This document shows, piece by piece, positions 20,656-36,969 of a DNA stretch of 39,525 bases (position 1 is the stretch's first letter; every line of letters starts with the position of its first letter). The notes under the pieces are model-generated. The model was given only the letters and a program-made list of their open reading frames with translations, did no database searches and was not told the origin of the DNA. A program made the position numbers and the translations under genes. The DNA lies in the IMG/VR virus record IMGVR_UViG_3300042539_000943, positions 1 through 39,525 of that record; one strand, given 5' to 3'. This DNA comes from a virus.

Positions 20656-21126
20656 ATGAAAAAAATTATTTTAACAGAATCACAAATAAAAACATTAACT
20701 GATAAGTTAATCAATGAATCGTCTTATTTATCAACTAATGATGAATTCAATATTGAATGTGAGGTGAATTTAAACTATTACAATGCCACATATAAACAAG
20801 GAGAAATAAACCACATTATAACATCAAATATACAATTAACCCACAATATTGATATGGATGTCAGGAGTTATGGGATTAGAGATATTTCAATCTACAATTT
20901 AAAAGGACCATCTGAAATTGAATTAGAAATATATTACTATGGAGAAAATGATGAAAATTTGGAAGATGTAATTACAGTTCCCTTAAATTGGGAAAATGTT
21001 GAAATGCAAAAAGACGAAGATTTAGATTACATTGGAATTAGTAATGACATACAAATCGATATAGAAAATGATGAAAATGGTGATTTAGTTGTTACCGGTA
21101 TTATTGTTAACTATAATTCGATTTAA
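20656..21126 (+). CDS. Protein with capsid-targeting-like N-terminus, class KIILTES; unknown function
   Basis: 156 residues. The N-terminus MKKIILTESQIKTLTDKLINE then SS matches the peptides of the genes at 27061, 27540 and 30584 and ends in I-N-E, a T4 gp21-like cleavage site. The remainder is rich in acidic and beta-forming residues (for example DISIYNLKGPSEIELEIYYYG) and would be a small beta-rich mature protein. No enzyme motif seen. The shared N-terminus and unrelated remainder point to a targeting tag. Confidence 0.65.
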   Translation: MKKIILTESQIKTLTDKLINESSYLSTNDEFNIECEVNLNYYNATYKQGEINHIITSNIQLTHNIDMDVRSYGIRDISIYNLKGPSEIELEIYYYGENDENLEDVITVPLNWENVEMQKDEDLDYIGISNDIQIDIENDENGDLVVTGIIVNYNSI

Positions 21127-21198
21127 CATTTACATTTTATTATAGTTTATTATATTTATAATTGACCTTGTGGTTGAAGTCGAAGTGTCTTTTAGGGC

Positions 21199-21238
21199 AT
21201 TTGAGTTGGAATTGATACCAACAAATTCGGGTTCAAAT
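21199..21238 (+). other. Possible RNA hairpin in the leader of the zinc-ribbon gene
   Basis: ATTTGA (21199-21204) can pair with TCAAAT (21233-21238), enclosing GTTGG-8-CCAAC (21205-21222) and an unpaired AAATTCGGGT. It lies in a 131-base gap and starts 59 bases before the ATG at 21258. Looks tRNA-T-arm-like at the end but does not fold as a tRNA. Confidence 0.3.
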
Positions 21239-21257
21239 ACAAAAAATATAAGGTAAA

Positions 21258-22031
21258 ATGAATAAAAAAATTTCAATCAACAGTGGTCGTGCTGTGCCAC
21301 AATCTTTTATTACCAAGGGTAAACAAAGATTAAAACAACACATAGACACCGTGTTTCTTAATAACGGTGATGAGTTCGAAATTGAACTTTTTAATCCAAC
21401 ACAAAATAAAGTTTTAGCCAAGATTAAACTGAACGATAAACACATCGGTAGTGGTATCATACTTCGTCCTGGTGAACGAGTTTTCCTCGAAAGGTACTTG
21501 GACGAGGCTAAGAAGTTTTTGTTTGAAACTTACGTTGTAAATGGAAATAATAAAGAAGTACTGAAGTCGATTGCAAAAAATGGAGAGGTTACTGTCGAAT
21601 TTTATGACGAAGAAACCATAAATTATGGTTATTCTCCTTGGTGGTCCAATAACAATACTGTCACCAAATTAGATAATCTTTATAATAATACAAGTTTTAC
21701 CAATGTAAATTTAGTTGGTACATTAAATACTAATTATTCATATGTAAATGATACTGTATTAAGTAATGTTAATCACACAAAATCTATAACAAATGAAATT
21801 AGAGAACTTGAAACAGGTAGAGTTGAGAAAGGGTCTGAATCAAACCAATCGTTTGTTTATGACAACAGTAATTTTAAAATTCATCCATATGTTATTAATC
21901 TTTGGAAAATTAAACCTAATAGTACCAAAATCTTTATTAGTGAGGATTTGGTCGTTTATTGCACAGAGTGTGGTGCAAAACGTAAAAAAGATAACCATAA
22001 GTTCTGTCCACACTGCGGAACAAAATACTAA
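21258..22031 (+). CDS. Protein with C-terminal zinc ribbon, unknown function
   Basis: 257 residues. The N-terminal two thirds is beta-rich (DEFEIELFNPTQNKVLAKI, GERVFLERYLDEAKKF). A Ser/Thr/Asn-rich linker near 125-185 joins it to CTECGAKRKKDNHKFCPHCG (235-254), a clear CxxC-x14-CxxC zinc ribbon. Such C-terminal ribbons occur in phage and bacterial proteins of many roles. I do not recognise the N-terminal domain. A bidirectional terminator follows. Confidence 0.65.
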   Translation: MNKKISINSGRAVPQSFITKGKQRLKQHIDTVFLNNGDEFEIELFNPTQNKVLAKIKLNDKHIGSGIILRPGERVFLERYLDEAKKFLFETYVVNGNNKEVLKSIAKNGEVTVEFYDEETINYGYSPWWSNNNTVTKLDNLYNNTSFTNVNLVGTLNTNYSYVNDTVLSNVNHTKSITNEIRELETGRVEKGSESNQSFVYDNSNFKIHPYVINLWKIKPNSTKIFISEDLVVYCTECGAKRKKDNHKFCPHCGTKY

Positions 22032-22055
22032 TAATAAACTAATCACAAGGTCATT

Positions 22056-22082
22056 AAAAGGGTTACAATTTGTAACCCTTTT
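22056..22082. terminator. Bidirectional rho-independent terminator
   Basis: AAAAGGGTTACA-ATT-TGTAACCCTTTT is a perfect 12-bp stem with T-tract on the plus strand (TTTTTT to 22084) and A-tract on the other side. It separates convergent genes. Confidence 0.88.
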
Positions 22083-22376
22083 TTATTGAAAATTTACTGG
22101 TATTGATTTAATATCAGAAATGGTAATGTTTTTTAAAGGTAAAGTTCCGTGTAACATAGGTTTAAACACACCTTGCATATGTAAAAATTGAAAGTAGTAA
22201 AATAAATATTTTGAATCAACTCTATCTTTATATTCATCTTTTACTTTAACACCAATATTTTCTTCATAAAATTCTTTTAATGGTTTTCCAACCGTATCTT
22301 CGGAACCTTTCCTTTGTAACCAAAAATCCGCATCCGGAAAATTAGTTTTAAAAATACAAATATCACCTATTTTCAT
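22083..22376 (-). CDS. HsdS-like target-recognition fragment
   Basis: 97 residues. IFKTNFPDADFWLQRKGSEDTVG, then DSKYLFYYFQFLHMQG, then LHGTLPLKNITISDIKSIPV resemble the second half of a type I restriction specificity (HsdS) target-recognition domain, where the closing GT...NIxxxDIxxIxV motif is conserved. It is far too short for a full HsdS (about 400 aa), and no HsdM or HsdR is present. Small HsdS-like proteins of this shape occur in large T4-like phages; their function is unclear. It overlaps the start of the next gene upstream by 4 bases (ATGA). Confidence 0.65.
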   Translation of the reverse strand: MKIGDICIFKTNFPDADFWLQRKGSEDTVGKPLKEFYEENIGVKVKDEYKDRVDSKYLFYYFQFLHMQGVFKPMLHGTLPLKNITISDIKSIPVNFQ

Positions 22377-23974
22377 ATTTCATTTAATCTTTCACTTAAA
22401 TATTCATTAAATTCATTACGATTTATATCGGGAGTCCACCTATTATCTAAACTAAATATTGGTTTATCACGATAATCTCCCAATATTTCATCAAAAACAC
22501 ACGCAGGGTCCTCATCACAATTTTCAAAATATTCATTAACTTCGACATCACCAAGACCCGTTTTATGAATCACATCTTTTAAATCGATTTTTATAGTGGC
22601 ACCAGTATCGTCTAATTTTAACACTTCACCATATTCACTAAGAGCATTTTTTAATTCTTTAATTGCGTAGTTGTAATAACTAGAACTCGCCGCATCATTA
22701 TAAGTATCACTTAATGCGTCTCTAATTTCATAATTATCATCATATTGTTCAATTAAATCTTTTAATGACATGTCAGGGTCGTATTCATTACCTGATTTTA
22801 TTTTTATTAAATTTTCTATGGTTTCATAGTTTTCTTTATTTACTTCATATTCAAGAGCGGATTTCCATTCACCATAATCATTGTCGTAAATATCCCAAAA
22901 ATCCCCCGATAACAATGTTTCAATAAAATATACTTTTTTGGTTCTACCATACTCATCTTTAGTTTGTCTAATTGCCCAATCACCTTCAACATAAAATCTC
23001 ACTCTATCTGGTTCAATCTTCAATTCAAAAACCATTTTTGGTTCTTGGAAATCCTTTATAATTCCCATTTCAAATAGTTTTTTCTGTAGACTACGAGTAT
23101 TGAATAATGCTGGTTTAACATTATATATTTGTCTTATTTCTTCTTCAGATAAATCGGTGATTTTAAAATCACTTGAACTATCGTATTCGGAACCGAACCC
23201 GTTAATATTTGTATTTAAAATTAAATCAACAATATATGGGTGAAGTTCTGATTTTGGTTTACTGTTTTTTGGTCCTTTTAATTGATAGATAATATTGTCA
23301 TCTTTACCAACCGCGGCGGTGAGATGACTTTTATTAAGTGTGTAATTATCCTTTATTTTTTTGGTTTCTCTAAGTGAATATACCGTATTGTTCAAACCGG
23401 TTCTTCCGCAATGACCCATTCTGTTGCACTCCTCTCTAGAATCATTGGTTTTTAAATTTGTCCAATAAAACCCAATACCATCTGAATCTCGATAATCCCT
23501 TAATATTTCATTGTTTTCAACATAATTTATATCTCCCTCTCCTGATGTTAATTCATTGTGCCATTTTCTTGATTCACTATAAAGTTCATTAAAATTTAGA
23601 TTTTTATATTGAGAAACGTCACCATTTAATCCAATACGAATCCAATCCATAATTGAAATAATATTACTTCTCATTCCATTTACACCACTTGACCTATTTA
23701 TCGCATCCACACCCATTTCTTTTCGATAATTTGCATCTGTTCTGAATAATTCTCTTAGTCTTTTTTCTTCTTCCTCTGGAAGACTACTCATAAAACGTTC
23801 AAAATTAATTTCAGCGAACACATTGATTAGTTTATTACCCAAAAAAATTGATAAATTACCGGCCAGTCGTGTTAAAAGGTCAGCATTATCTTCACTAAAA
23901 CCTAATTTTTTAATTAGGATGTCTTTTTTGCTGGCTTCTAATATTAATTCTTCAATTAATAATAATGTTTTCAT
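22373..23974 (-). CDS. PcfJ-like Cys-motif protein with capsid-targeting-like N-terminus
   Basis: 533 residues. The N-terminus MKTLLLIEELILEA is the closest in the window to T4 internal-protein peptides (of the form MKTYQEFIAEA), with I-L-E before A. Residues 183-205 (CNRMGHCGRTG, YSLRETKK) then SHLTAAVG and IIYQLKGPKNSKP follow the Cys-HC, SLR, LT, Q-x-x-G-x-x-N order known in PcfJ-like proteins; that match is inference. It overlaps the next gene by 4 bases and is likely co-transcribed with it. Activity is unknown. Confidence 0.6.
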   Translation of the reverse strand: MKTLLLIEELILEASKKDILIKKLGFSEDNADLLTRLAGNLSIFLGNKLINVFAEINFERFMSSLPEEEEKRLRELFRTDANYRKEMGVDAINRSSGVNGMRSNIISIMDWIRIGLNGDVSQYKNLNFNELYSESRKWHNELTSGEGDINYVENNEILRDYRDSDGIGFYWTNLKTNDSREECNRMGHCGRTGLNNTVYSLRETKKIKDNYTLNKSHLTAAVGKDDNIIYQLKGPKNSKPKSELHPYIVDLILNTNINGFGSEYDSSSDFKITDLSEEEIRQIYNVKPALFNTRSLQKKLFEMGIIKDFQEPKMVFELKIEPDRVRFYVEGDWAIRQTKDEYGRTKKVYFIETLLSGDFWDIYDNDYGEWKSALEYEVNKENYETIENLIKIKSGNEYDPDMSLKDLIEQYDDNYEIRDALSDTYNDAASSSYYNYAIKELKNALSEYGEVLKLDDTGATIKIDLKDVIHKTGLGDVEVNEYFENCDEDPACVFDEILGDYRDKPIFSLDNRWTPDINRNEFNEYLSERLNEI

Positions 23975-25776
23975 AAAAATCTTTTAAATTTCATAACCGA
24001 TTCAAAAAGTTTGTATCTTGTTAAATATTGTGGAAGATTTTCAATTCTAACCAAACCATCGTTTTTTTCGTTTGTCTTTTTATTTAAGTGGTTTACAAAT
24101 ACTGATTCTTTTTCACAATCAACCTCTTTATTTGGTATTTCAATTTTAAATTCATCATTTTCAAAAGTTGTGGACCCTTTCATTAATTTATTAATAATAT
24201 TATTTAAATCCATTCTTAATTTAATACATTTTTGTGAAAATTCATCTTCAGATAAGTATTTGAAAAAAACGTCAATATCAAACTCAATATCATTATAAGA
24301 TGGGAGTGTTCTTTCCCAATCATAAAACTCATCACCGTAATCTGTAGGTATGTCGTAGTAATAAATAAAGTTATCAAAAAAATCTGTTATATTTTCAATT
24401 TTTGTTATATTGTTTTCTATTATGTATTTTAAAAAATATCCAATATTCACTTTTAATGTTGAATAATATCCCGCATCAAAAATAATATACCTTTCAATTT
24501 TTTCTATCTCCTCTTGCATTCTTCCTTCGAAATTTGGGGCGTTTAAATCGCAATATTTATCGATATATTTCTCCCTAATTTTTTCATTATTAACAAAATT
24601 ATCGAATAATAAATCGTAAAATCTTTCATAAGTATTTGTACCAAATTTTTGATATATATCATTTTTGTTTTCATTATAGTATTCTTCAAATAATGGTTTT
24701 AAATAATTCTCACCCAAATCTTCATTATCGATATCACTAAAATCATTATAAACAAAATCATAGGATTCACGTTTCTCCGCTCTATATTGTGATAAGATAT
24801 TATCAACACTATCCAAATCACCATTTAATCTTTTATACGGAAATAGAATTCTCCCCCCTTTAATTTCATCCACTTTTTGAATACCATTGGTTTCGGATTG
24901 AATAAGTTCTTGAATTTTTTCATAATTTTTCGTTTGGATTGCAACCACCAATTCATTGGCACTTTCAGATGAAATTTTTGACATTAAAGTTTCAATGTCT
25001 TTATCGTTTAACACATACATTCGAGCAATCTCTTCTGAAATTTCTTTAATATCAACACTTTCTTTTAATAAACTTGGGAAAAAGAAATATTTTATTTCAG
25101 GGCCATTAGCAAATAACCAATTAACATTTATTTGTTTATCGTTCACATCCATAAATTGGTCGGTTGGAAAATGAAATTGATATTTTTCATTTAAATCCGA
25201 ATTATTAATGATGATATACAGGGGGCCTGATTGATTGTATTGTCTAAATCTATTTGTTCTACCTCTAAAATTAGGATTTAATGATAAGGGTCCCCATGTT
25301 GTGCACCATTGAGTATTCACACCCAAATAACAAGCGGCTTTTTCTGTTTTGGGTATAAGTATTGTCCATTCATTTCCTTCAAAAACTTTTTCATATTCAT
25401 TTGGTGATAATGAACGAATAATTGTGGACAAATCCACCGTATTTTTAACATAATGTTTTGATATATATGGAAAAATATCAGCAATTGTTTGAATATTTTT
25501 TATATCCAATGAAACTTTATGTTTATATACGTATGTCAGATATTCGGTTGCTTTTGGCAGGTCCTCCATTTTCATATTTCCATTTCTAAAAATATTTAAA
25601 AGGATTTTTGAATAAGGACCGATTTTATCGATTCTATCTCCTGATAATTTTGACGCGGGGTCTGATGACACAATTTTTTTAAACGTATCAAATGGGATAT
25701 CGTTATAGTATTTGTTATAAATTTCCTCCGGTGTTGCCTCCAATAACAACGTTTCCAACACATTAATTAGTTTCAT
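23971..25776 (-). CDS. Large protein with WCTTW motif and capsid-targeting-like N-terminus
   Basis: 601 residues. MKLINVLETLLLEATPEE at the N-terminus carries L-L-E before A. Residues 150-161 (YLGVNTQWCTTW) then NRFRQYNQSGPLYIII, KYQFHF and MDVNDKQI form the Cys-motif domain also suggested in the proteins at 18152 and 22373. The C-terminal half is acidic, Tyr-rich and unrecognised. The start lies inside a 16-bp palindrome shared with the divergent gene at 25807. Likely the first gene of the minus operon 25776 to 22083. Confidence 0.6.
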   Translation of the reverse strand: MKLINVLETLLLEATPEEIYNKYYNDIPFDTFKKIVSSDPASKLSGDRIDKIGPYSKILLNIFRNGNMKMEDLPKATEYLTYVYKHKVSLDIKNIQTIADIFPYISKHYVKNTVDLSTIIRSLSPNEYEKVFEGNEWTILIPKTEKAACYLGVNTQWCTTWGPLSLNPNFRGRTNRFRQYNQSGPLYIIINNSDLNEKYQFHFPTDQFMDVNDKQINVNWLFANGPEIKYFFFPSLLKESVDIKEISEEIARMYVLNDKDIETLMSKISSESANELVVAIQTKNYEKIQELIQSETNGIQKVDEIKGGRILFPYKRLNGDLDSVDNILSQYRAEKRESYDFVYNDFSDIDNEDLGENYLKPLFEEYYNENKNDIYQKFGTNTYERFYDLLFDNFVNNEKIREKYIDKYCDLNAPNFEGRMQEEIEKIERYIIFDAGYYSTLKVNIGYFLKYIIENNITKIENITDFFDNFIYYYDIPTDYGDEFYDWERTLPSYNDIEFDIDVFFKYLSEDEFSQKCIKLRMDLNNIINKLMKGSTTFENDEFKIEIPNKEVDCEKESVFVNHLNKKTNEKNDGLVRIENLPQYLTRYKLFESVMKFKRFL

Positions 25777-25801
25777 ATTTATATAAATATCCGATATTTA
25801 T
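25775..25801. promoter_or_regulatory. Divergent start region with 16-bp palindrome and two ATATTTAT boxes
   Basis: ATATTTATATAAATAT (25775-25790) is a perfect palindrome holding one ATATTTAT for each strand, the minus one six bases from the ATG at 25776. A second plus-strand ATATTTAT is at 25794-25801, five bases before the ATG at 25807. Confidence 0.6.
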
Positions 25802-25806
25802 GTAAT

Positions 25807-27081
25807 ATGGACAATATTATAAGAAAGATATTAAGAGAATATGTTGAAAATTCTTCAGTTGACGAAGCTCAACATATATTCACGAATGAACATGCAAAAA
25901 ATAGATTATATAGTCGATTACTTAATGGTAAATTTCATTTAGAAAAAGTTGTAAATGCTGGTGACCCCAAGGCATTAAATGTTTCCCGACCATACACAAA
26001 AATGGTTGGAGAATACGTTTTACCTGAAGATGTAATGGATAGTATTAAGAATAAAATAGATGAATTATATAAATTTGATTTCCCAAAAGACAAGAAATAT
26101 TTGGTTGTTTTAAAAAAATTAAATATTAATATTGATGACCCAAATATAAAATGGTCAAGTGAGGAAATAAAAAATGAGACAAGTGATGAATCATTGAACA
26201 AAAAAATAATGGGTTTTTACATAAGACCAATTACAGAAAAAGATGATGATAAATTTCATGGTAACATTATATGTGTTAGGATTGATAATGATATTATAGA
26301 AACAATCATGTGGGTGAGAGAATACCAAATTAAAAATAAAACAAAAGAGGAGTTCGGTGGATTTGATGAAATATTAACAATGGATAATGATGTAAAAAAT
26401 ATTAATGATTATTATACCTATGTTGATGATGTGAATTCACAAAGAAAAAAAGAAGAAAATCCAACTCCTCAAAATTACAGATTCGATTCGGATGTTAGTC
26501 GACAACTCAATGTTGCTCGAATGGAGGCCAAAAGAAAAAAGGAAGAAAAAGAAAAATTAAAACAGGAAAAAGAAAAGTTTAATCAAGAAAAAGAAGATAT
26601 ATTAAAAGGTGGTAGATTTGAGTATTCTCTTAGTAGACAATCACTCAGAGAACTTAAAAATATGTTTAAAAGAGATTCGATTCAGTATTATGATGGTGAT
26701 GAATTTGATTCAATGGATTCTTTTGCGTTTTATCCTGATGAATATGATAAACTAATGGATATTCTTTCCGTTAAAAACCTTAATATAACTTATATCGACC
26801 CCAAAGGAAGAAAAAGGACAATAACATCTCCAAGATATGAAAAATACAAAGTTGGTTTATTTGGAATGGGCCACATTCCCGGTATTTTTTCAGAAAAATC
26901 AAATTTTATGACTCCCTATCAAAAAGAATTAACCAATATTATTAATGACCCAAAATTAAAAGAAAGGGATGGTAAAATTTATAATTATGGATTAAGAAGT
27001 ATAAATGATTCAAAACAAGAAAACCAATATTTGTTTGATTTTATTAGAGATAACTATATATCAAGCATTCTTGAGCAATAG
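25807..27081 (+). CDS. Large protein with possible capsid-targeting-like N-terminus and coiled coil
   Basis: 424 residues. MDNIIRKILREYVENSS opens with a short helix and L-R-E; a weaker match to the peptide family. Residues 236-260 (ARMEAKRKKEEKEKLK, QEKEKFNQEKEDI) form a charged coiled coil. The flanking regions (HAKNRLYSRLLNG, RRQSLRELKNMFKRD) are not recognised. The stop overlaps the opposite-strand gene's stop by about 20 bases. Function unknown. Confidence 0.6.
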   Translation: MDNIIRKILREYVENSSVDEAQHIFTNEHAKNRLYSRLLNGKFHLEKVVNAGDPKALNVSRPYTKMVGEYVLPEDVMDSIKNKIDELYKFDFPKDKKYLVVLKKLNINIDDPNIKWSSEEIKNETSDESLNKKIMGFYIRPITEKDDDKFHGNIICVRIDNDIIETIMWVREYQIKNKTKEEFGGFDEILTMDNDVKNINDYYTYVDDVNSQRKKEENPTPQNYRFDSDVSRQLNVARMEAKRKKEEKEKLKQEKEKFNQEKEDILKGGRFEYSLSRQSLRELKNMFKRDSIQYYDGDEFDSMDSFAFYPDEYDKLMDILSVKNLNITYIDPKGRKRTITSPRYEKYKVGLFGMGHIPGIFSEKSNFMTPYQKELTNIINDPKLKERDGKIYNYGLRSINDSKQENQYLFDFIRDNYISSILEQ

Positions 27082-27543
27082 TTCACCCAATACCTCAATT
27101 TTTCCAACCAATTTCTGAAACTCAACTTGACTAATATTCATCTCCTTTTTTGTTGATGAATTAAGTTTTTCCAAGAGTTCTTTGTATTCTTTTTTTGCAT
27201 CTTCCATATTTAATTTACCTTCTGATGCTTTTTTGTAGTATGGAAGTTTAACAACAAAATGGTGATAAGTTAACATGGAAAACCCACCTTTTTCTTTTGC
27301 GTTATCTGATATTTTTTTTGCTCCACCCATTCTGGTTTCCGCAAATTCTTCAAACTTCTCCAATTTTGATTCCGTAATCCCTTTTACTTCCTTATCGTAT
27401 TCTTTGAATCTATCGGGATTTGACATCATTGCATTTTTCGGAAATAATCTTTTTTTTCTGGTGTTCGCAAAGGTTCTAGCTCTTTCTTCGATTTCTTTAT
27501 CGATTAAGTTTTTTAATTGTGATTCCGTAAAAATGTATCTCAT
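27061..27543 (-). CDS. Lysine-rich protein with capsid-targeting-like N-terminus
   Basis: 160 residues. MRYIFTESQLKNLIDKEIEERA matches the KIIITESQLKNLI peptide class, ending in I-E-E. The remainder is helical and basic (KKRLFPKN, KYYKKASEG in parts, KKEYKELLEKL). Such a basic helical body would suit DNA association in a head, as with T4 internal proteins, but no domain is recognised. It overlaps the upstream gene by 4 bases and the convergent gene by 21. Confidence 0.62.
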   Translation of the reverse strand: MRYIFTESQLKNLIDKEIEERARTFANTRKKRLFPKNAMMSNPDRFKEYDKEVKGITESKLEKFEEFAETRMGGAKKISDNAKEKGGFSMLTYHHFVVKLPYYKKASEGKLNMEDAKKEYKELLEKLNSSTKKEMNISQVEFQKLVGKIEVLGELLLKNA

Positions 27544-27932
27544 ATGGTATCTCCAAGATTTTTAATTATTGGATTTTTCATGAATTTATTAAATGTTTTT
27601 CTCAATTGAATTTGTCCCTCATTTAAATTTAAACCAAAATCGGTATTTTCAAATGTTTCTTCTGTACCATACTCTTCCATATCACCTTCCATACCTTTTG
27701 GGTGGTTCATTTTATGAATATCTTCTGGGTCAACAAATTTTCCACCAACAACATCAACATTTAATTTGTTATCAGAATCTTCTCCTGATTTCAATCTATC
27801 ATACATATCACCAGCGGCTTGCAAATCTTCAAAATCGATTTCATCCGCTTCTGGATTTAAATTCATTTCGTTTAATGACCTTCTTTTAATTAGGTTTTTC
27901 AATTGTGTTTCAGTTATTATGATTTTTTTCAT
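27540..27932 (-). CDS. Acidic protein with capsid-targeting-like N-terminus
   Basis: 130 residues. MKKIIITETQLKNLIKRRSLNE then MN is the archetype of the peptide class, ending L-N-E. The body is acidic (ADEIDFEDLQAAGD, GDMEEYGTEETFENTDF). A second L-N-E followed by G (NLNEGQIQLRK) lies near residue 105, so proteolysis could cut twice. An ATATTTAT box is at 27950-27957. Function unknown. Confidence 0.65.
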   Translation of the reverse strand: MKKIIITETQLKNLIKRRSLNEMNLNPEADEIDFEDLQAAGDMYDRLKSGEDSDNKLNVDVVGGKFVDPEDIHKMNHPKGMEGDMEEYGTEETFENTDFGLNLNEGQIQLRKTFNKFMKNPIIKNLGDTI

Positions 27933-27949
27933 TTTGTTGTTTTTTATAT

Positions 27950-27957
27950 ATAAATAT
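27950..27957 (-). promoter_or_regulatory. ATATTTAT box
   Basis: Exact ATATTTAT on the coding strand, 17 bases before the ATG at 27932, followed by TATAAAAAAC. Confidence 0.45.
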
Positions 27958-27983
27958 CAGAAAATTCAACCGGCGCCCGAGGT

Positions 27984-28775
27984 TCAAAAATTAAAACCAA
28001 ATCCAATGGATAGATTGGGAACAGAGATAATTGATAGACTTAGATTTCCATTTAATATGTCTTTATTGTATAAAACCCCAATGGAAATTTGTGGGGTTGT
28101 TATGGACTTGCCCATTATATTATAATACCCATCATTCCCCAAAATATAATATTCGTCAAAATATTGTGGATATTCTCTATAATTCACAATTCCAAATCCC
28201 AAATATGGGACAAAGTCATTTATTTCTTTTCCGTATCCAACGGTAAATTCATAAAATGTCCGGTCGGTTTTAATATATCTATCGTTCCATCTTTTAACGT
28301 CATAGATTGAGATGTTTTCATAGACATAAAAACTGGTTAATGGAAATTTAAAGGTTGAAATAAATCTATTTTCATTTCCAACGGAATAATAAAACCCCAT
28401 TCCGGTTTCATAATTTTTATTTATTGGGAAAGTTATTCCAAGAGTATTTTCAAATGATTTTGATGGTGATTTTTGTCTATTTAATGAATAATTTCCACCA
28501 TAGTTATAATAATTATTTATTTGTGGTGGGTTTATATCATATCTCCATGGAGAATAAATGTATGGTGAATTCCATCTATTATAGATAATTGGAGGGTTGT
28601 ACTGGTGTCTTATTGGTGGTCTATATCGATAATCATATCTATTGTTTTGTGTCCCAGTTGAACCATTTCTTTTTGCAATTTTTTCATTTATTTCGGAATT
28701 TTGTCCAAAAAGAAATAATGGAAATAATAAAAACAAAAAAATGGATTTTATTTTAAAAAATTGTTTCATATACAT
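27984..28775 (-). CDS. Outer-membrane beta-barrel-like protein with signal peptide
   Basis: 263 residues. MKQFFKIKSIFLFLLFPLFLFGQ is a signal peptide ending in FGQ, typical of Bacteroidota. Residues 40-75 are Tyr/Pro/Asn-rich (YRPPIRHQYNPPIIYNRW), and the rest alternates polar and hydrophobic residues with repeated Tyr-ended strands (ETGMGFYYSVG, TVGYGKEINDFVPYLGFGI, SIISVPNLSIGFGFNF). The final Phe is typical of an outer-membrane barrel. A phage-encoded barrel could alter the host surface; the role is inference. An imperfect box (ATATTTAA) lies before its start. Confidence 0.7.
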   Translation of the reverse strand: MYMKQFFKIKSIFLFLLFPLFLFGQNSEINEKIAKRNGSTGTQNNRYDYRYRPPIRHQYNPPIIYNRWNSPYIYSPWRYDINPPQINNYYNYGGNYSLNRQKSPSKSFENTLGITFPINKNYETGMGFYYSVGNENRFISTFKFPLTSFYVYENISIYDVKRWNDRYIKTDRTFYEFTVGYGKEINDFVPYLGFGIVNYREYPQYFDEYYILGNDGYYNIMGKSITTPQISIGVLYNKDILNGNLSLSIISVPNLSIGFGFNF

Positions 28776-28778
28776 TAA

Positions 28779-28786
28779 ATATTTAT
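28779..28786 (+). promoter_or_regulatory. ATATTTAT box
   Basis: Exact ATATTTAT five bases before the ATG at 28792; this decides the start over earlier in-frame ATGs that would overlap the divergent gene. Confidence 0.55.
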
Positions 28787-28791
28787 CTTAT

Positions 28792-30192
28792 ATGAAAATT
28801 GTTGGAAGAATACCGAAAAAACTAAAATTCATGACCATATTAAATGAATTGCATGAACAAGAAATGTCTTTGGAAGAAGTTTCATGGATGAAAGATGTTA
28901 ACGAAAAAATAAGGGAAGGAGAGATACCTTTAACACCAACAATTGTTAAGAAAATTTTGGGTGAACCAAAAATAATTGAAACATTTCATGTTACGGACGA
29001 AATACATCTTGATGATTTTAAAAAAATATTGGGAAAAAGAAACCCAATTTCAACACTTACCTATTTTTCGGAAGAGAGAATAAAAGATGCCTATGGTATT
29101 AAAACATTTGGTGGAATTATTTTTAAGGTTAAAGGAATTTTGGATTTTGCATCCAATTACGATATCATGTCAACCGTTGACCCTTCGTTAAATAGAAGAT
29201 GGATAAGGTCAGATTTGTTGTCACAAAGTTTATCTGTTGAATATAATAACACCAATAGAAGGATTGGGTATCCGAGTTCAACAAATGATTATAAAAAATA
29301 TTTTGAAAATTTATATAGACTTATTGACAAATATAAAGAAACAATACAAGAAAAATTAATTGATTTAATATTTGTATATGGTGTGCATGAAGAATGGAAT
29401 GAGTTACTCGTAAGAAATATACAGGTACAAAGTGTGGCATGGTTTCCACATAGAGTAATGGATAAAGATTCAACACTTCAAAATTTAAAATCAATCACCC
29501 CAAATATTTTTACCTTCAACGATGAAAATGAAATGTTGGAATGGTTTATAAAGAATGGTGGTCATATCGAAACCACAAAATTTAAAGATGAATGGTCAAA
29601 AAATTATGACATTAAATCATTGGAAAAAAACAAGAATTATATCATATATAAAATATTAACCGATAAAAATTATTTGATAAATAACATTGATAATAAAGAT
29701 TTCATAAATACATTAATTACGTTTGACACCCCCGATTTTAGGGTAATTTTTTCCAAATTAAAAAATAAAAATGAAATTTTTAATATTATTAAAATATTTT
29801 TATCAATGGATAAATTTATCGCCAACTACGGATTTAATGTTCGAGATATGATAGATTTGTTCTTGACACAATTTACTGATAACGATGAAAAATTTAATTG
29901 GTTTGTTAATAAAATATTCTCATTGCCAAATGTTTATATTAGTTCTTGGGCCGTTGGAAAATTAATTGAAATCTCTGGTGATAATAGTGAAAAAATGATA
30001 GATAAAATGTTATCATCAAAAAGTTTTTTGCAAAATCTTAGAGAACCATCTTCCGTAAGAATGTTATACCATTATTCGGATGACAAAAAAAAGGTAATGA
30101 ATATTATATCAAATAACTCCACCACGTTTGATGAAGAATGGTGGAAAAATGATAGATTTCTTAACAGGGATATAAAATATAATTTTCTTTAA
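28792..30192 (+). CDS. Putative ADP-ribosyltransferase-like late protein
   Basis: 466 residues from the ATG at 28792. The N-terminus has ILNE followed by LHEQ, a weak (I/L)-x-E site. Residues 63-90 (IETFHVTDEIHLDDF, RNPISTLTYF) then GIKTFGGIIFKV and, near 200, YGVHEEWNELLVRN have the order H, S-T, E expected for ADP-ribosyltransferases of the R/H-STS-ExE class. T4 Alt is a packaged ART, so a head-delivered ART is plausible, but the match is motif-level only. The C-terminal half is unrecognised. The stop overlaps the next gene's by 4 bases. Confidence 0.5.
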   Translation: MKIVGRIPKKLKFMTILNELHEQEMSLEEVSWMKDVNEKIREGEIPLTPTIVKKILGEPKIIETFHVTDEIHLDDFKKILGKRNPISTLTYFSEERIKDAYGIKTFGGIIFKVKGILDFASNYDIMSTVDPSLNRRWIRSDLLSQSLSVEYNNTNRRIGYPSSTNDYKKYFENLYRLIDKYKETIQEKLIDLIFVYGVHEEWNELLVRNIQVQSVAWFPHRVMDKDSTLQNLKSITPNIFTFNDENEMLEWFIKNGGHIETTKFKDEWSKNYDIKSLEKNKNYIIYKILTDKNYLINNIDNKDFINTLITFDTPDFRVIFSKLKNKNEIFNIIKIFLSMDKFIANYGFNVRDMIDLFLTQFTDNDEKFNWFVNKIFSLPNVYISSWAVGKLIEISGDNSEKMIDKMLSSKSFLQNLREPSSVRMLYHYSDDKKKVMNIISNNSTTFDEEWWKNDRFLNRDIKYNFL

Positions 30193-30554
30193 TAAAGAAT
30201 CTGATTGTATTTTTTAAAAATTGTTTGACCTCGAAACCATCGATTGTTTAATTGTGGTGTTGAAAATTCAATAATATCCACAATGGTTAATAAATCATCA
30301 TTGTCCAAATTCTCCAAATGGGGATTATCAAAATATTTGTATCTGGTTTTTTCCAAATCAAATAAAATTGTTTTATATGAATTATAAAATAATTTTAATT
30401 CATTTAATAACTTTTCAATATGCAATAAATGTGGTGATAATCGTTTATCATTAAATGATTCATCCACCTCTTTTAAATAAGCATATAAAATATACTCCTT
30501 ATGTTCAAAATCTATTGGTGATTGAAAATACCAATTAATTGGTAATAACTCCAT
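30189..30554 (-). CDS. Conserved-looking phage protein, unknown function
   Basis: 121 residues. MELLPINWYFQSPIDFEHKEYILYAYLKEVDESF and RLSPHLLHIEKLLNELKLFYNSY (given in parts) look like a conserved family in large phages, but I cannot name its function. This is one of few genes here with a real ribosome-binding site: GGGAGG at 30561-30566, six bases before the ATG. Helical throughout. Confidence 0.6.
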   Translation of the reverse strand: MELLPINWYFQSPIDFEHKEYILYAYLKEVDESFNDKRLSPHLLHIEKLLNELKLFYNSYKTILFDLEKTRYKYFDNPHLENLDNDDLLTIVDIIEFSTPQLNNRWFRGQTIFKKYNQILY

Positions 30555-30583
30555 AATGAACCTCCCATATGGATTTAAAATGA

Positions 30584-31441
30584 TTATTTTCTTTTTCTTC
30601 CCCTAAGAACCTTGTTCCAATTCTTACTGTTCACATCGTTCTCATTAATGATGTTATTGATAACATTTTTTAATTGAGTCTCCGTTATTTTAACCACTTT
30701 CTTATTTTCCCTTAATGGGGTCGAAGCGTTTACACCCTGCACTCTTCTTAATGTTCCTTGATTTGGATTTACTTTTGGCATTGCATAACTCGGTAAATTT
30801 GCAACATCTTGTGTGTTGTCTATGGCCGGTTTTGATTGTGCCATTGGCGCGGTTTTTCTTGTTAATTTAACAAACTGTTCCGCTCTTGCACCAGGAGAAT
30901 TATATTGTGTATTTGTCCCAACAACACCTTTTGCAATAAAGTTAATATTTGTCATACCACTTTCCTTAAGTGCTTTTATCATGTTATTGGCCCTTCTTAA
31001 TGCCAATGCGTTGTTGTCATATCCTTGTGCACTTCCAACCGCAGATGCTCCACCCAATACATCCACCGTTGTTTGTGGTGTAAGACTTTTAACAGCGGTT
31101 AATGCTGTCTGAAATTCTTTGCTGTTTTTATTTATTGTCGATTTTCCTGTGTCAAATAAATTTGAACCCAATGTCATGGTTTGACCTGGTTTCCATACCA
31201 ACTGAGACGGTTGTCTTCCGTGTTGGTCGTTGTATGATTGAATATCTTTTCTCGCATCAGAACCAACCGGTTTATACCCGCCCGTATCCAATGGTTTGTT
31301 TGCATTTTTTAAAAAATCCAAGTTTGGTTTGGTTAAATCTTGCAAAGATTTATTTGTGGGTAAATCTGAAATTCTTTGTTCAGATATTGTTTTACTAATT
31401 AATTTAATAAGTTCAGATTCGGTAACTTTAATTTTTCTCAT
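30584..31441 (-). CDS. OmpA-like domain protein with capsid-targeting-like peptides at both ends
   Basis: 285 residues. MRKIKVTESELIKLISKTISE (1-21) is the N-terminal peptide, ending I-S-E before Q. The centre (about 83-195: LGSNLFDTGKSTI, VDVLGGASAVG, NNALALRRANNMIKAL) is an OmpA C-terminal, peptidoglycan-binding domain. Residues 249-269 (VVKITETQLKNVINNIINE) repeat the same peptide, preceded by TPLRE, near the C-terminus. So the tag occurs twice, as if a second tagged protein had been fused on. A role at the cell wall, in the virion or during lysis, is inference. A near-match box (ATATTTAT with one change) precedes it. Confidence 0.75.
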   Translation of the reverse strand: MRKIKVTESELIKLISKTISEQRISDLPTNKSLQDLTKPNLDFLKNANKPLDTGGYKPVGSDARKDIQSYNDQHGRQPSQLVWKPGQTMTLGSNLFDTGKSTINKNSKEFQTALTAVKSLTPQTTVDVLGGASAVGSAQGYDNNALALRRANNMIKALKESGMTNINFIAKGVVGTNTQYNSPGARAEQFVKLTRKTAPMAQSKPAIDNTQDVANLPSYAMPKVNPNQGTLRRVQGVNASTPLRENKKVVKITETQLKNVINNIINENDVNSKNWNKVLRGRKRK

Positions 31442-31471
31442 GTATATAAATAGTTTTAAACTTTAAAAATA

Positions 31472-32005
31472 TCAAATTATTTTTTCAATATTTTGGATAA
31501 CATTTTTATTCCAAACACAACCCGAAGCAACATCCCAACCATAATACCAATCTAACTCCCTTCTCGCTGGCCACATATATGGTGATATTTCAATTCCACC
31601 ATATGAATTTGAAACTTTTTTCCAATTAATTTGGGTAAATACATGGGTTTTCACACCAAATTCTTTATTAAAAGAATACAGTTTTTCCAAAGTATCAATC
31701 ATTAACATATTTGATTCATTTAAATCTATCTTAAATATGTTATCGTATTCCCAATCGGGCATTTCACTTCGAACCCAATCAATCCAAGAAACACCAATTC
31801 CATACCATAAACCTTTTGGTTTATAACCTATCTCTTGATTATTAAATTCCCTAAAATTGATTGTAGTATCTTCTGTCATAATCAATCTTGATTCGGAATA
31901 TTTGTCCAAAATCAATTGATAACCTTCTTCAGATACTTCGTTAATATCAGAATTAACGGATTTCATTATTGATTTAATTCTATTTATATTTTCTTGTAGG
32001 TTCAT
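31472..32005 (-). CDS. Protein with capsid-targeting-like N-terminus, class NIxRIKxxM
   Basis: 177 residues. MNLQENINRIKSIMKSVNSDINE then VSE is a second peptide class, shared with the gene at 33182. The body has KPKGLWYGIGVSWIDWV, INWKKVSNSYGGIEISPY and DWYYGWDVASGCVWNK, a Trp/Gly-rich pattern I associate with an uncharacterised family. It overlaps the holin gene start by 4 bases. Function unknown. Confidence 0.6.
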   Translation of the reverse strand: MNLQENINRIKSIMKSVNSDINEVSEEGYQLILDKYSESRLIMTEDTTINFREFNNQEIGYKPKGLWYGIGVSWIDWVRSEMPDWEYDNIFKIDLNESNMLMIDTLEKLYSFNKEFGVKTHVFTQINWKKVSNSYGGIEISPYMWPARRELDWYYGWDVASGCVWNKNVIQNIEKII

Positions 32006-32436
32006 TCATCGACATGTTTATGTTTATCAATTTTTTCCAAAATTTCATTTAACAATCCCGATTTTATGTAACCTGAAAGTGATGCATTTTTCATGGCGCT
32101 TATTAATTGGAAAACCATAAATGGAACAATAATAACTTCACTTAACCATGATGTTCCCATAAAACCCTTTTCAATCATTAATACCACAGTTAATATTAAC
32201 AACCAAACAAAAGTGTTTTTTAATATACTTAACGCCTTATGTGTCTTAAAACCTTCCCTCTTTGTTCCAGCAATTATTCCAAAAATCCCATCTAAAAACA
32301 TTACACCAATAACCGCCAAATATTGGTCGGAATTGTTCATGTATAAATTAAAAAAATAAGAACAAATAAAAGCCAAAAGTGCGGTAAATGATGTTGTTAA
32401 AAAAACAAAAGGGTCCGTTAATGAATTCAATTTCAT
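32002..32436 (-). CDS. Holin-like membrane protein (phage_holin_4-type)
   Basis: 144 residues with four predicted membrane segments: about 12-30, 40-56, 70-88 and 98-115. FLDGIFGIIAGTKREGFKTHKALSILKN matches the D-x-x-x-G-I-x-x-A-x-K-x-x...S pattern of the holin 4 family, which forms inner-membrane lesions that let endolysin out. The C-terminal tail is charged. It starts 4 bases inside the upstream gene; translation is coupled. It is 12 kb from the endolysin. Confidence 0.75.
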   Translation of the reverse strand: MKLNSLTDPFVFLTTSFTALLAFICSYFFNLYMNNSDQYLAVIGVMFLDGIFGIIAGTKREGFKTHKALSILKNTFVWLLILTVVLMIEKGFMGTSWLSEVIIVPFMVFQLISAMKNASLSGYIKSGLLNEILEKIDKHKHVDE

Positions 32437-33107
32437 AATGGTTGATTTTCCATTCGATTAAAGAAATCCATAAATGTTTTTTTCGATTCATTTATCATTG
32501 GATTATCTTGATTTTCTGGTTCATTTTGTTGTACCTCTTGATTCATTGCATCGGTCATTGATTTGGTAAGAGATGTATACACATCTTCACCATATCTACC
32601 CATAATATCATTTTCATCACGAAGGTCAATGAATTGTCCTCCCACCATGAACCCAAGAACATTTTTAAGATTAATTGACCTCCATGCTCCTTTTGATGCC
32701 ATTGCTTTCATTTCGTCGGCGTTCATCTCAGGATTTTCATTTCTTAACCTCTTGAGTTCCTTTTTATATGAATTAACATCCACAACCTTTTTAAGGTCAT
32801 GATTCATTTCCACATTCATTTGAGCGTCGGTCTTTTCTCTATCACTTGGAACATATGAACTTAGATTTTTTCTAATCAACATGTGTCTTACCGTTCCGTC
32901 CTTTTTAACAAACGCAACACTCACCATCTTGTTTTTATCGATTGAATCTCTTAATCTTTGAAGGTCATCCCTTTCATTAAACCCCTCGTAATCCAAATCA
33001 TCCTCTTCTAATTGACCTTCATTTAATGGTTTTCTGTAACCGTGTGTTTTGTGTTGTTCGAGAATCTGAATTTTCTCTTCGTCGGTTAAACTAAAGTTCT
33101 TATACAT
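32433..33107 (-). CDS. DUF2693-like protein with capsid-targeting-like N-terminus
   Basis: 224 residues. The N-terminus MYKNFSLTDEEKIQILEQHKTHGYRKPLNE then GQ is a third peptide form. Residues 62-150 (VSVAFVKKDGTVRHMLIRKN, VVDVNSYKKEL, GAWRSINLKNVLGFMVGG) match the KKDGTxR...WRS core of a T4-type phage SH3-like protein family. NPMINESKK near the C-terminus gives another I-N-E. An ATATTTAT box is at 33126-33133. Function unknown. Confidence 0.6.
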   Translation of the reverse strand: MYKNFSLTDEEKIQILEQHKTHGYRKPLNEGQLEEDDLDYEGFNERDDLQRLRDSIDKNKMVSVAFVKKDGTVRHMLIRKNLSSYVPSDREKTDAQMNVEMNHDLKKVVDVNSYKKELKRLRNENPEMNADEMKAMASKGAWRSINLKNVLGFMVGGQFIDLRDENDIMGRYGEDVYTSLTKSMTDAMNQEVQQNEPENQDNPMINESKKTFMDFFNRMENQPL

Positions 33108-33125
33108 TGATTTGATTTTTAATAT

Positions 33126-33133
33126 ATAAATAT
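33126..33133 (-). promoter_or_regulatory. ATATTTAT box
   Basis: Exact ATATTTAT on the coding strand, 18 bases before the ATG at 33107. Confidence 0.45.
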
Positions 33134-33181
33134 CTTATATGTTTAATAATTTAGATTGACGATTAAAAAAAAATTCTTTAA

Positions 33182-33727
33182 TTAAAAATCAGAATCAGGG
33201 TCATCATAGTCAATATCTGACTCTTTTTCTTGAATCTCATCATTAAAATTATCATACATAAATTCTTCTCCTGACATTCCATTACTCAATTGAACCTTAA
33301 GGAAATTTGTAATATCCTTATCTTTGTATAGAACAGTATTACCACTTCCCTCAATAAATTTGGAATATGTTAATCTTGTGATATCGAATTTATATTCCGC
33401 AAAATCCCATGAAGGAGGATAACCCGGGTCACCCCCTGGAAGATACATAACACCGGAACTGTAACTAGACCTACTGGTGTAATTAATATCAAATTCATAT
33501 GTTAAAGTCTCATCCCCCTCTTCGTCCTCAATCATAAACTCCCCATCGAAAGCACTAACAGAATAATCATAAAGTTCGGGATTTTGAATAAACTTATTAA
33601 GAACTTTGGTAATACCCTGCCTAACCTCCAATGAAATCTCGGGTTCAATTGGGTTATCAAATGAACCCTCATTAATGGTGTTCATCATTTGTTTTATACG
33701 TTGAATGTTTTCGTTTAAATTTTTCAT
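33182..33727 (-). CDS. Acidic protein with capsid-targeting-like N-terminus
   Basis: 181 residues. MKNLNENIQRIKQMMNTINE then GS parallels the gene at 31472 and ends I-N-E before G. The body is acidic and aromatic (EDEEGDETLTYEFDINY, MYLPGGDPGYPPSWDF), with a Glu/Asp-rich tail. No family recognised. An ATATTTAT box is at 33745-33752. Confidence 0.65.
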   Translation of the reverse strand: MKNLNENIQRIKQMMNTINEGSFDNPIEPEISLEVRQGITKVLNKFIQNPELYDYSVSAFDGEFMIEDEEGDETLTYEFDINYTSRSSYSSGVMYLPGGDPGYPPSWDFAEYKFDITRLTYSKFIEGSGNTVLYKDKDITNFLKVQLSNGMSGEEFMYDNFNDEIQEKESDIDYDDPDSDF

Positions 33728-33744
33728 AATGTTAAATAATATAC

Positions 33745-33752
33745 ATAAATAT
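33745..33752 (-). promoter_or_regulatory. ATATTTAT box
   Basis: Exact ATATTTAT on the coding strand, 17 bases before the ATG at 33727. Confidence 0.45.
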
Positions 33753-33766
33753 TTTAATAAATAAAA

Positions 33767-33791
33767 AACCCCACCATTTTGGGGTGGGGTT
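33767..33791 (-). terminator. Rho-independent terminator
   Basis: On the minus strand AACCCCACC-7-GGTGGGGTT forms a perfect 9-bp stem followed by TTTTATTT. It ends the gene at 33799-34311. Confidence 0.85.
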
Positions 33792-33798
33792 TGGTGTC

Positions 33799-34311
33799 TT
33801 AACCGAACCCACTCTCCGCTCTTCTATTTCGTTCGTCACTATAATGAATTTCATTTTCCCTATTGACTTCTTTAACGGCATCGTTAAATGACAAAAAAGA
33901 ATCTTTGTGACTTAAAATAAATTTTAACGCATCCTCATATCCAAATGTTTGTGATGTTCCTTTTTCATCGTTATCCTTATACGTATGGATTTCTATTTCC
34001 TCATCATTTATGAAATAAATATTAAAATCCATGTGACCCTTGCATCTAATAAAATATTCATTACCGTCAAATGTTTCCAACAAAATATCGTTTTTTTCTA
34101 AATCATTTTCCATTGATTTTTTAATATTAAAGTCTTCTTTATCATATCTAGGTTGTTCATCATAATCCGGTTCCGATGGTTCACTATAATCTCTATATTG
34201 TGAATGGGTCATCATTGGTTCACCATCATCGTTAAAAGGTTGTTCATTCATTAATTTTTTCATCATATTTTTTATTTGATGAATCTCTTCCTTTAATGTT
34301 TGTTTTTTCAT
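33799..34311 (-). CDS. Acidic protein with capsid-targeting-like N-terminus
   Basis: 170 residues. MKKQTLKEEIHQIKNMMKKLMNE then QPF ends in M-N-E, a variant of the site. Residues 25-55 (DDGEPMMTHSQYRD, EPDYDEQPRYDKEDF) look unstructured; the centre FDGNEYFIRCKGHMDFNIYFI is beta-rich. First gene of the minus block (box at 34325-34332), with its own terminator. Function unknown. Confidence 0.62.
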   Translation of the reverse strand: MKKQTLKEEIHQIKNMMKKLMNEQPFNDDGEPMMTHSQYRDYSEPSEPDYDEQPRYDKEDFNIKKSMENDLEKNDILLETFDGNEYFIRCKGHMDFNIYFINDEEIEIHTYKDNDEKGTSQTFGYEDALKFILSHKDSFLSFNDAVKEVNRENEIHYSDERNRRAESGFG

Positions 34312-35592: not shown

Positions 35593-36382
35593 GTACAATG
35601 AATATAAAAAAACTTGGTCACAAGCCAACAAATCAATAATCAATTTAAATAAAAAAAGAAGTGAATTAAAAACTAATTTGATTGATGTTGGGATTTTACC
35701 TAAAACCTACCCATACACAAAAAACCAAGAAGAATTAATGGATAAATTAAAATCGAATGATTTTGATGATATATTATCCCTTTTAAAAGAAAAAAATAAA
35801 GAGGTAAGAAAAAACAAATCCATAGAACGGAAAAAAATTATAAAAATTAAGAAGCAGACTGAAAAGGTTGACAAAAACAAAAGAAAAATTGAGGTTAGAT
35901 TAAATAAAATGGTGGACGCTGGTATATTACCAAAGGACTACCATAATTTAGAAACTGAACAACACAAAGTAATATATGATTTGGCGGTAAATCATTTGAC
36001 CCTACCACCACAAAAAATTATTTGGGAGTATATTAACGACGCAAACTTACTGACAAAACAAAAATATGTACACACTAAATTAAAGACAAAAGTATCTAGA
36101 GATTATTATAAGAAAAAAGGTAAATTCATGGACATTAAACCTGAAGATATCATTATAAATGAATATTGTCCATTTTTAGGTATTAAAATTGATTATAATA
36201 CCCACTCAAAAGAGTTTTTTAATAATGACTCACAAAGTGTCGATAGAATAGAAAATAGTAAGGGTTACGTAAAAAATAACGTATGGGTAATTTCACGATT
36301 GGCAAATCTTATGAAAAACGACGCAACAACTGAACAACTTAAAACTTTTTGTAAAAATATAATTTTAATGTATGCAAAATAA
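35576..36382 (+). CDS. Paralogous HNH/endonuclease VII-like nuclease with two N-terminal repeats
   Basis: 268 residues (an ATG six bases later is equally possible). Repeats at about 30-72 (LIDVGILPKTYPYTKNQEEL) and 106-146 (MVDAGILPKDYHNLETEQHK) belong to the same family as the first gene's. The nuclease core is YCPFLGIKIDYN, SVDRIENSKGYVKNN and VISRLANLMKNDATTEQL. A Lys-rich linker (74-105) separates the repeats. It overlaps both neighbours, so the three genes form one operon. Confidence 0.75.
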   Translation: MKMRYKYNEYKKTWSQANKSIINLNKKRSELKTNLIDVGILPKTYPYTKNQEELMDKLKSNDFDDILSLLKEKNKEVRKNKSIERKKIIKIKKQTEKVDKNKRKIEVRLNKMVDAGILPKDYHNLETEQHKVIYDLAVNHLTLPPQKIIWEYINDANLLTKQKYVHTKLKTKVSRDYYKKKGKFMDIKPEDIIINEYCPFLGIKIDYNTHSKEFFNNDSQSVDRIENSKGYVKNNVWVISRLANLMKNDATTEQLKTFCKNIILMYAK

Positions 36383-36839: not shown

Positions 36840-36908
36840 TTTTTGAAAATTTTTTCGGAAATTTTTTTTTCGTTTTTGACCATAAAGTCGAATTTTGGAA
36901 AAATTTCC

Positions 36909-36939: not shown

Positions 36940-36969
36940 TATTTAGACCCCCAAAAAACATATTAACGA

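Follow-up and report, generated by a model that had tools for sequence, protein, structure and literature searches.

Candidate capsid-targeting tags of the T4 kind on many proteins of an uncultured bacterial virus and their exchange between cargo bodies

In phage T4, internal proteins are brought to the prohead core by propeptides of 10–19 residues, which the protease gp21 removes by cutting after L/I-x-E. Processing at the C-terminus is described as well, for Alt and for gp21 itself, and the propeptides of gp21 are suspected to be targeting signals (PMC9026906). In ϕKZ and SPN3US a glutamate-directed prohead protease (gp175 and gp245, respectively) trims head proteins, some of which are ejection candidates (PMC5694885), and in P1 the N-terminal 30 residues of DarB suffice to carry a reporter into the head (PMC9024508). 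Here we describe a set of short peptides of comparable appearance in IMG/VR record IMGVR_UViG_3300042539_000943, a complete 39.5-kb record (39,525 nucleotides, hereafter the window) from an uncultured virus of bacteria. Up to 14 proteins of the window have a short N-terminal peptide with (I/L/M/V)xE as its last residues. These peptides belong to at least four classes, and 13 of the 14 end in INE, LNE, ISE, ITE, ILE, LLE, LTE or LRE, the exception being the protein at 33799. Based on sequence comparisons, we consider it highly likely that these peptides represent enlarged and diversified capsid-targeting tags of the T4 kind, which would be cut by gp21 after loading. The initial annotation of the window had already read them as cleavable capsid-targeting peptides, and that reading gains support from tag swaps at (I/L/V)xE, from tag classes that recur in gp21-bearing relatives and from a matching INE/A site in gp23 (slashes mark predicted cuts).

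As in T4 (IPI–III and Alt), short N-terminal peptides with an L/I-x-E site are found on different cargoes together with a gp21 protease; the T4-type criterion that we applied was an N-terminal propeptide of about 7–65 residues ending in L/I-x-E. Unlike in T4, one and the same body can follow different tags, the tags fall into at least four classes and are also found inside proteins and probably at C-termini, two cargoes can be fused, one class resembles the C-terminus of the scaffold, and the number of candidate cargoes is much larger. The likeness to T4 lies in these shared features; by eye, the start of T4 gp24, MAKINELLRE, resembles our class 3. The predicted propeptide removal by a glutamate-directed prohead protease would be a feature shared with ϕKZ and SPN3US, for which the account in PMC5694885 gives different motifs (A-x-E in SPN3US and S/A/G-x-E in ϕKZ) and several SPN3US propeptides of more than 100 residues. 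P1 DarB likewise has an N-terminal capsid signal, but P1 is described as apparently having no separate scaffold (PMC9024508). The tags described here probably enlarge greatly a principle already known from T4. Among the matches listed for literature on capsid targeting, propeptides and scaffold tails, the titles and abstracts contained no evident description of these tag classes or of a scaffold-like tag, so that what is new, as far as our searches show, comprises the classes and the way in which they replace one another on a single body, the tags in internal or C-terminal positions, and the resemblance to the tail of the scaffold.

The strongest evidence for a cleavable targeting tag is the swapping of tags at the junction with homologous bodies, a sequence pattern that marks the tag as a module separable from its cargo. 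The protein at 27061–27543 (minus strand) has a conserved, all-helical cargo body (27061–27369), which we refer to as family B and which has 416 confirmed relatives in IMG/VR. This body is preceded by ITE/SK in the window, LEE/SK in the related contig G005 and LRE/AK in Flavobacterium phage immuto. Eighty relatives were kept, giving 60 distinct open reading frames (ORFs), some of which are close relatives of one another. The body anchor together with [ILMVF]xE in the prefix was found in 56 of the 60; L140 has the anchor and no such site, and the three ORFs that are missing the anchor are L099, which is truncated, and L106 and L111, which have VQE and LME, respectively, in their prefixes. In seven of the 56 (L100, L118, L119, L121, L125, L130, and L138) the only xxE lies inside a class 1 tag, and with these seven exceptions sorted by eye, 49 of the 60 have [ILV]xE where tag and body meet, as compared with a base rate of 0.216 for [ILMVF]xE in internal windows of 13 residues. 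The tags themselves are diverse, with 23 distinct short ones among them. In one relative, L144, a protein with the motif HEMAHELLHW is fused to the family B body via QINE/SMKLTDILTE/; this motif is metallopeptidase-like, and the ORF has a complete second tag inside it.

A second body, that of the WYL_2-like protein at 32433–33107 (minus strand; its WYL_2 match is below the curated cut-off), has 34 confirmed relatives, representing 28 distinct ORFs. In the window it has the class 4 tag MYKNFSLTDEEKIQILEQHKTHGYRKPLNE/ (33018–33107, minus strand), as judged from homologue comparison and an AlphaFold2 (AF2) model, while it is preceded by class 1 tags in G012 (169662) and others and by FDLKRFLVEN in L194. 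In L174, L175, and L177–L179 the same body lies inside proteins of 569–795 residues. The proteins at 18152, 22373, 23971, and 13528 have xxE at the same place in their orthologues, with the exception of G010 for 18152, in which it is at residue 9.

The family B protein of the window has a 58-residue propeptide (27370–27543, minus strand; class 1 score 30.8) ending in KGITE/SK, which consists of a class 1 tag and a stretch in common with the C-terminus of a neighboring G005 gene. It does start with a tag as the initial annotation had claimed, and the cut is better placed at ITE58/S than at IEE. The shared stretch, RKKRLFPKNAMMSNP..DRFKEYDKEVKG, is found at the C-terminus of the tagged pterin dehydratase gene G005 129682, an arrangement that a gene fusion or deletion might have produced. 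Such a stretch, along with the clustering of the tag genes in the window (20.6–34.3 kb), would also be expected if the N-terminal likeness were ordinary homology or recombination debris, such as leader domains and gene fusions, with no targeting function. We regard this explanation as very unlikely based on the fact that distant phages keep the same classes on bodies that are unrelated, that the xxE junction is conserved, and that there is a counterpart at C-termini.

For T4-kind tags to be cut, a protease of the gp21 type should be encoded in the same genome, and the initial annotation had proposed looking for one outside the window. The window matches bases 65753–105277 of a 107-kb IMG/VR contig (G002) over its full length with 99.98% identity, and a 70-kb contig (G001) over 38.4 kb with 99.8% identity. 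G002 has a T4-type head cluster comprising terminase, portal gp20, a protein at the gp22 position, a gp21 prohead protease of the Peptidase_S77 type (PF03420, E 4.5e-23), and gp23 (PF07068, E 6.8e-66); the gp22-position protein had no PHROG match, and neither gp21 nor gp23 was found in G001, which is a fragment. Since the protease is present in a contig that holds the whole window, beside gp20, the gp22-position protein and gp23, the main worry, that of a missing protease, is answered. A search of the window alone for the HK97-type protease (PF04586) had no match, as expected because the window is a fragment. By matching positions by eye, H89, S152/S153, and D178 of gp21 are invariant across six gp21 sequences including that of T4, and a His-Ser-Asp triad is named in PMC5694885.

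The gp23 site expected to be cut by the same protease is of the same type as the tags. In the lineage of G002 the gp23 N-terminus is LYENQASYLINE/AA, conserved in the five lineage contigs compared, with the predicted site LINE/AA at about residue 60; in immuto the site is VSE/A. By eye, the predicted INE/A site is near the position of the T4 site, FLTE/AE. This gp23 matches 2502 phage records, with Microcystis phage Mel-JY01, Rhodothermus phage RM378, and Flavobacterium phage immuto among the best-coverage or best-identity matches listed.

The tags also co-occur with gp21 in other contigs. Of ten further contigs in which a protein has a strict class 1 start, five have PF03420; of the five negatives, G004, G006, and G009 have the same protein (120 residues compared) as positive contigs, and the other two are 29 and 11 kb in length. 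A phrog_207 search of five class 1 contigs identified no protease, and its controls were also blank. Among contigs of at least 100 kb with family B, 16 of 21 have PF03420, and three of the negatives (G014, G015, and G022) share identical ORFs with positive contigs. PF03420 was detected in none of 34 contigs matched by a random 15-mer, and the comparison of the long family B contigs with the five of these that are at least 100 kb gives a Fisher p of 0.004.

The tag classes were defined by consensus: (K)KIIITESQLKxLI... for class 1, ENIxRIKxMM... for class 2, the short MKxLxxLLxE for class 3, and FxLTDEEKxxIL..., as in 32433, for class 4. The three classes named by the initial annotation are right as far as they go, and its list was incomplete, with FxLT(D/E)EEK, FDLKKFLVEN, and LAGI as further types. 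We scored the window with leave-out profiles built solely from other genomes (internal 99% thresholds of 1.5, 6.1, and 5.1 for classes 1, 2, and 3). With the class 1 profile, four window proteins score 26–33 and there are ten matches in the contig vs. 1.3 expected; with the class 2 profile, three window proteins score 18–33 and there are four matches vs. 1.3 expected. The class 3 profile gave six matches vs. 1.3 expected, some of which look spurious, and the proteins at 23971 and 18152 were not among them; class 3 is marginal by sequence alone and rests on homologues.

In a five-genome set of 1064 proteins (G002, G012, G005, G010, and immuto), 26 matches to class 1 scored above 14, 12 of them being seeds, vs. 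1.6 per shuffle. These matches start at residues 1–3 in 23 of the 26 cases overall and in 11 of the 14 non-seeds, and the remaining three are at residue 248 of the window protein 30584, residue 285 of G005 234029, and residue 28 of G010 28494, an ORF that a methionine at the match suggests is over-long. For class 2 there were 19 matches above 14 vs. 1.2 per shuffle, and the 12 best comprised nine N-terminal matches (eight of them seeds), two right at the C-terminal end, and one within a contig-edge ORF (residue 116). [IL]NE at residues 10–40 was present in 13 of 109 G002 proteins of at least 90 residues, with a shuffle mean of 3.6 and none of 500 shuffles reaching 13. In a comparison of N-terminal 25-mers of non-homologous proteins (score of at least 36, with two internal segments and the C-terminus as controls), the number of matching pairs was 16 of 5352 in G002 vs. 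2, 1, and 3 in the controls, although these 16 include some signal peptides and nucleotide-binding starts; 49 of 32878 vs. 7, 11, and 7 in G005; and 13 of 11926 vs. 3, 2, and 3 in immuto. A tblastn search of phage records with a class 1 peptide had no match, and a search with an immuto tag matched only immuto records.

Several observations weigh against the interpretation of these peptides as T4-kind tags. Bare [IL]xE at residues 10–40 is barely enriched (48 of the same 109 G002 proteins vs. a shuffle mean of 38.4, with 12 of 500 shuffles reaching 48), for which reason we rejected the notion that any xxE close to an N-terminus represents a cut site. The tag of 33799 ends in MNE, outside the T4 rule of L/I-x-E, albeit within the (I/L/M) pattern of the initial annotation. 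The 25-mer comparison was not positive in G010 (5 of 6898 vs. 1, 2, and 6), class 2 also has internal matches, such as those of one orthologous family at residue 73, and the tails of gp21 give weak matches to the class 2 profile (ten-start tail fractions of 0.011–0.46). Two family B contigs, G030 and G033 (215 and 131 kb), are without gp21 and may be fragments, and 29 of the 34 control contigs are shorter than 100 kb. In addition, some of the patterns were written after the sequences had been seen, and related genomes are not independent samples. In phage PA5oct, for which 93 proteins marked by mass spectrometry (MS) were compared with 297 ORFs (the MS-negative set coming from our own ORF calling), neither short tags (4 of 93 vs. 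8 of 297, p 0.31) nor [IL]xE at residues 8–22 (18 of 93 vs. 52 of 297, p 0.40) were enriched among the MS proteins; a third pattern gave 14 of 93 vs. 23 of 297, with a p of 0.033 that is uncorrected for three tries.

Lastly, several class 1 proteins (e.g., MKIIITEEQLKKIKSDDFEEF, G005 126082 and 129682) have no later xxE. This would be consistent with the tags being uncut structural anchors in the portal, neck or shell of the virion, with xxE as part of the helix, as would the fact that the PA5oct relative of 23971 is recorded as a structural protein. We consider uncut anchors unlikely, however, based on the xxE that lies between tag and body in 49 of the 60 family B ORFs, whatever the tag, and on a genome that has both gp21 and a gp23 with the same INE site.

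A likeness to the scaffold also speaks for tags of the T4 kind. In immuto the gp22-position protein has the C-terminal sequence SEQVSRWQKLAGIIK, to be compared with SEQFKRMQFLAGIITES and SEQFRRMQKLAGIITES in two tags of the same phage. A motif derived from immuto, written after seeing these sequences, has eight matches in the 1064 proteins vs. 0.25 expected: six at residues 9–12, one at residue 121 of a G010 contig-edge ORF, and one at the end of immuto gp22. In the lineage of the window gp22 ends in NPQFKRMKDLMSKIK, and the chance of the best class 2 score within the last ten positions of gp22, as compared with all positions, is 0.0014–0.0057 in this lineage and 0.0035 in immuto. The gp22-position protein of PA5oct ends in EELRRLAGIK, and its MS-detected virion protein EST35_0203 starts with MFNINDILRLAGVQAVKE; the LAG motif also occurs internally in EST35_0203 and in EST35_0235, which was likewise detected by MS, as well as in the ClpA-like EST35_0298, a presumably unrelated protein without an MS mark.

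Within genomes, the tails of gp21 and gp22 resemble each other (shuffle p of 0.0005 in G002, 0/2000 in G012, 0.0115 in G005, 0.0025 in G010, and 0.0105 in immuto), and no significant likeness was found between the T4 gp21 and gp22 tails (shuffle p 0.08). In herpesviruses, overlapping genes give the scaffold and the protease a common C-terminal tail, which is cleavable and docks to the shell. The gp21 and gp22 tails may form a similar pair here, but unlike in herpesviruses the genes are separate and many cargoes have similar helices. At C-termini the core of the class 2 profile matched 15 of 778 proteins vs. 3.9 expected, a small and partly orthologous sample that includes gp21 tails and some chance-looking matches, and nine of the 15 have [ILMVF]xE just before the match (base rate 0.216). 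We read class 2 as a docking helix that may be usable at either end of a protein. A further alternative is that the tags address another site or process in the cell, such as a replication compartment or a host protein; the tagged enzymes of G005, which include a PolyA_pol/CCA-type nucleotidyltransferase, an HD hydrolase, and a pterin dehydratase, could act at any stage. With a class 2-type tag matching the scaffold C-terminus in three lineages, and tags co-occurring with gp21, such an address is extremely unlikely. All three of the alternatives explain the junction and the link to gp21 less well than T4-kind tags do.

Based on these comparisons, we propose that a short, flexible, and probably helical end peptide would dock a cargo onto the prohead core, that the gp21-type protease would cut it after (I/L/V)-x-E, often INE or LNE, and that the cut cargo would remain unattached inside the head and be injected along with the DNA. 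We infer the docking, cutting, packaging, and injection from what can be read in the genome itself, namely the classes, their exchange at junctions, gp21, and the matching site in gp23. Tags pass between cargo bodies as modules, and class 2 probably imitates the C-terminal docking helix of gp22 and could also sit at a C-terminus, behind an LxE site. More tentatively, and stopping somewhat short of favoring it, we suggest that in a broad T4-related group the C-terminal docking helix of the scaffold may serve as a portable, cleavable label on dozens of unrelated proteins, at N- or C-termini or between domains and with the protease site in between, which would make the head a programmable compartment whose cargo is readable from sequence. 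If the T4-kind reading is true, it would be possible to read from the genomes of uncultured T4-like phages which proteins they inject, including many of unknown function and the enzymes of G005; there would be a testable answer to how the prohead core recognizes cargo; and several new tag classes would be available for loading proteins into phage heads.

The individual tags of the window are as follows. All ten proteins and four weaker cases listed in the initial annotation are present where it placed them, with the N-termini it described, although its count of at least eleven differs from its own list, and they are not all adjacent, as untagged genes lie between them (endolysin at 19780, 21258, 22083, 27984, 30189, and holin at 32002). 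Class 1 tags are MKKIILTESQIKTLTDKLINE/ of the protein at 20656–21126 (20656–20718, plus strand; score 26.4), MKKIIITETQLKNLIKRRSLNE/ of 27540–27932 (27867–27932, minus strand; 32.7), and MRKIKVTESELIKLISKTISE/ of 30584–31441 (31379–31441, minus strand; 27.7), a protein with an OmpA domain (PF00691, E 4.5e-6) in which a second, internal class 1 tag, KVVKITETQLKNVINNIINE/, begins near the C-terminus at residue 248 of 285 and is followed by IINE (30641–30700, minus strand; 29.4). Class 2 tags, all on the minus strand, are MNLQENINRIKSIMKSVNSDINE/ of 31472–32005 (31937–32005; 25.2), a protein in the phrog_8582 family (E 1.1e-16), MKNLNENIQRIKQMMNTINE/ of 33182–33727 (33668–33727; 32.8), and MKKQTLKEEIHQIKNMMKKLMNE/ of 33799–34311 (34243–34311; 18.0), the one ending in MNE.

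Candidate class 3 tags are MKTLLLIEELILE/ of 22373–23974 (23936–23974, minus strand; score 7.7, threshold 5.1), whose homologue G010 1984 starts MNFKNLLSELLVE/ANK, and, from homologues and below the threshold, MKLINVLETLLLE/ of 23971–25776 (25738–25776, minus strand), whose homologue G005 111973 starts MKLKLLFEELLVE/ATP, and MKFQELIFGALTE/ of 18152–19771 (18152–18190, plus strand), whose homologues start MRFTEILFDTLLE/, MKIKNLIYDLLLE/, and MKITDLLLE/. The short tag MDNIIRKILRE/ of 25807–27081 (25807–25839, plus strand; class 3 score 6.8, threshold 5.1) resembles the family B tag MKDLIRQILRE/. The tag MVNKEIEEKTVLRILNNILLE/ of 13528–13860 (13798–13860, minus strand) is supported by homologues with VLYE/, LLNE/, and VILE/ at the same place, and MKIVGRIPKKLKFMTILNE/ of 28792–30192 (28792–28848, plus strand) is a weak candidate from its sequence. 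Tags also seem to occur at C-termini: possible tails, all on the minus strand, are GQIQLRKTFNKFMKNPIIKNLGDTI after LNE/ in 27540–27932 (27543–27617), likened by eye to that of 32433; SKKTFMDFFNRMENQPL after INE/ in 32433–33107 (32436–32486), for which the AF2 model shows a C-terminal helix; and KLFE/SVMKFKRFL in 23971–25776 (23974–24000), where the alignment consensus is LFES..KFK.

The bodies, described previously as unrelated, are mostly so, with the exception that 23971 and 18152 seem to have a common domain containing a WC motif (hhalign E 2e-4, probability 45%); the alignment of 22373 with 23971 is confined to the first 22 residues (hhalign probability 6%). Matches to the WC-containing domain of 23971 were also found in Pseudomonas jumbo phages and in Salicola phage SCTP-2. 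Part of 23971 matches a distant relative, PA5oct EST35_0205 (residues 55–217), a virion protein identified by electrospray ionization tandem MS that starts MKLFEVFTLYE/D; taken together, the virion data of PA5oct support the tag reading weakly. Most of the tagged proteins are without a convincing Pfam or PHROG family, the exceptions being those with OmpA (30584), phrog_8582 (31472), and phrog_2267 (32433). PDB sequence searches with 28792 and 23971 returned nothing useful, and Foldseek searches with the models of the family B body and 32433 had no PDB match with E ≤ 0.001. In the AF2 model of the family B body, the predicted local distance difference test (pLDDT) score averages 53 over the first ten residues and is 95–99 for most of the all-helical body. 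The model of 32433 (overall mean pLDDT 74) has a tag helix at residues 9–21, a low confidence segment at 22–45 that contains the LNE site, a folded body, a low confidence segment at 195–202, and a helix at 203–220.

Elsewhere in the window, positions 539–13074 contain a block of genes of the surface-sugar type (epimerase, aminotransferase, thiamine-pyrophosphate enzyme, and glycosyltransferase-like), judged from sequences only, in which the leave-out profiles of classes 1–3 marked just one small overlapping ORF, weakly. A GIY-YIG/T5orf172-type endonuclease gene (PF10544) is located at 17511–18077, and two adjoining related genes (28% identity) at 34615–36382 have HNH-like C-terminal motifs by eye. 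The last part of the window, 36800–39525, is a low-coding stretch with several repeats of 105–130 bp that have 82–89% mutual identity.

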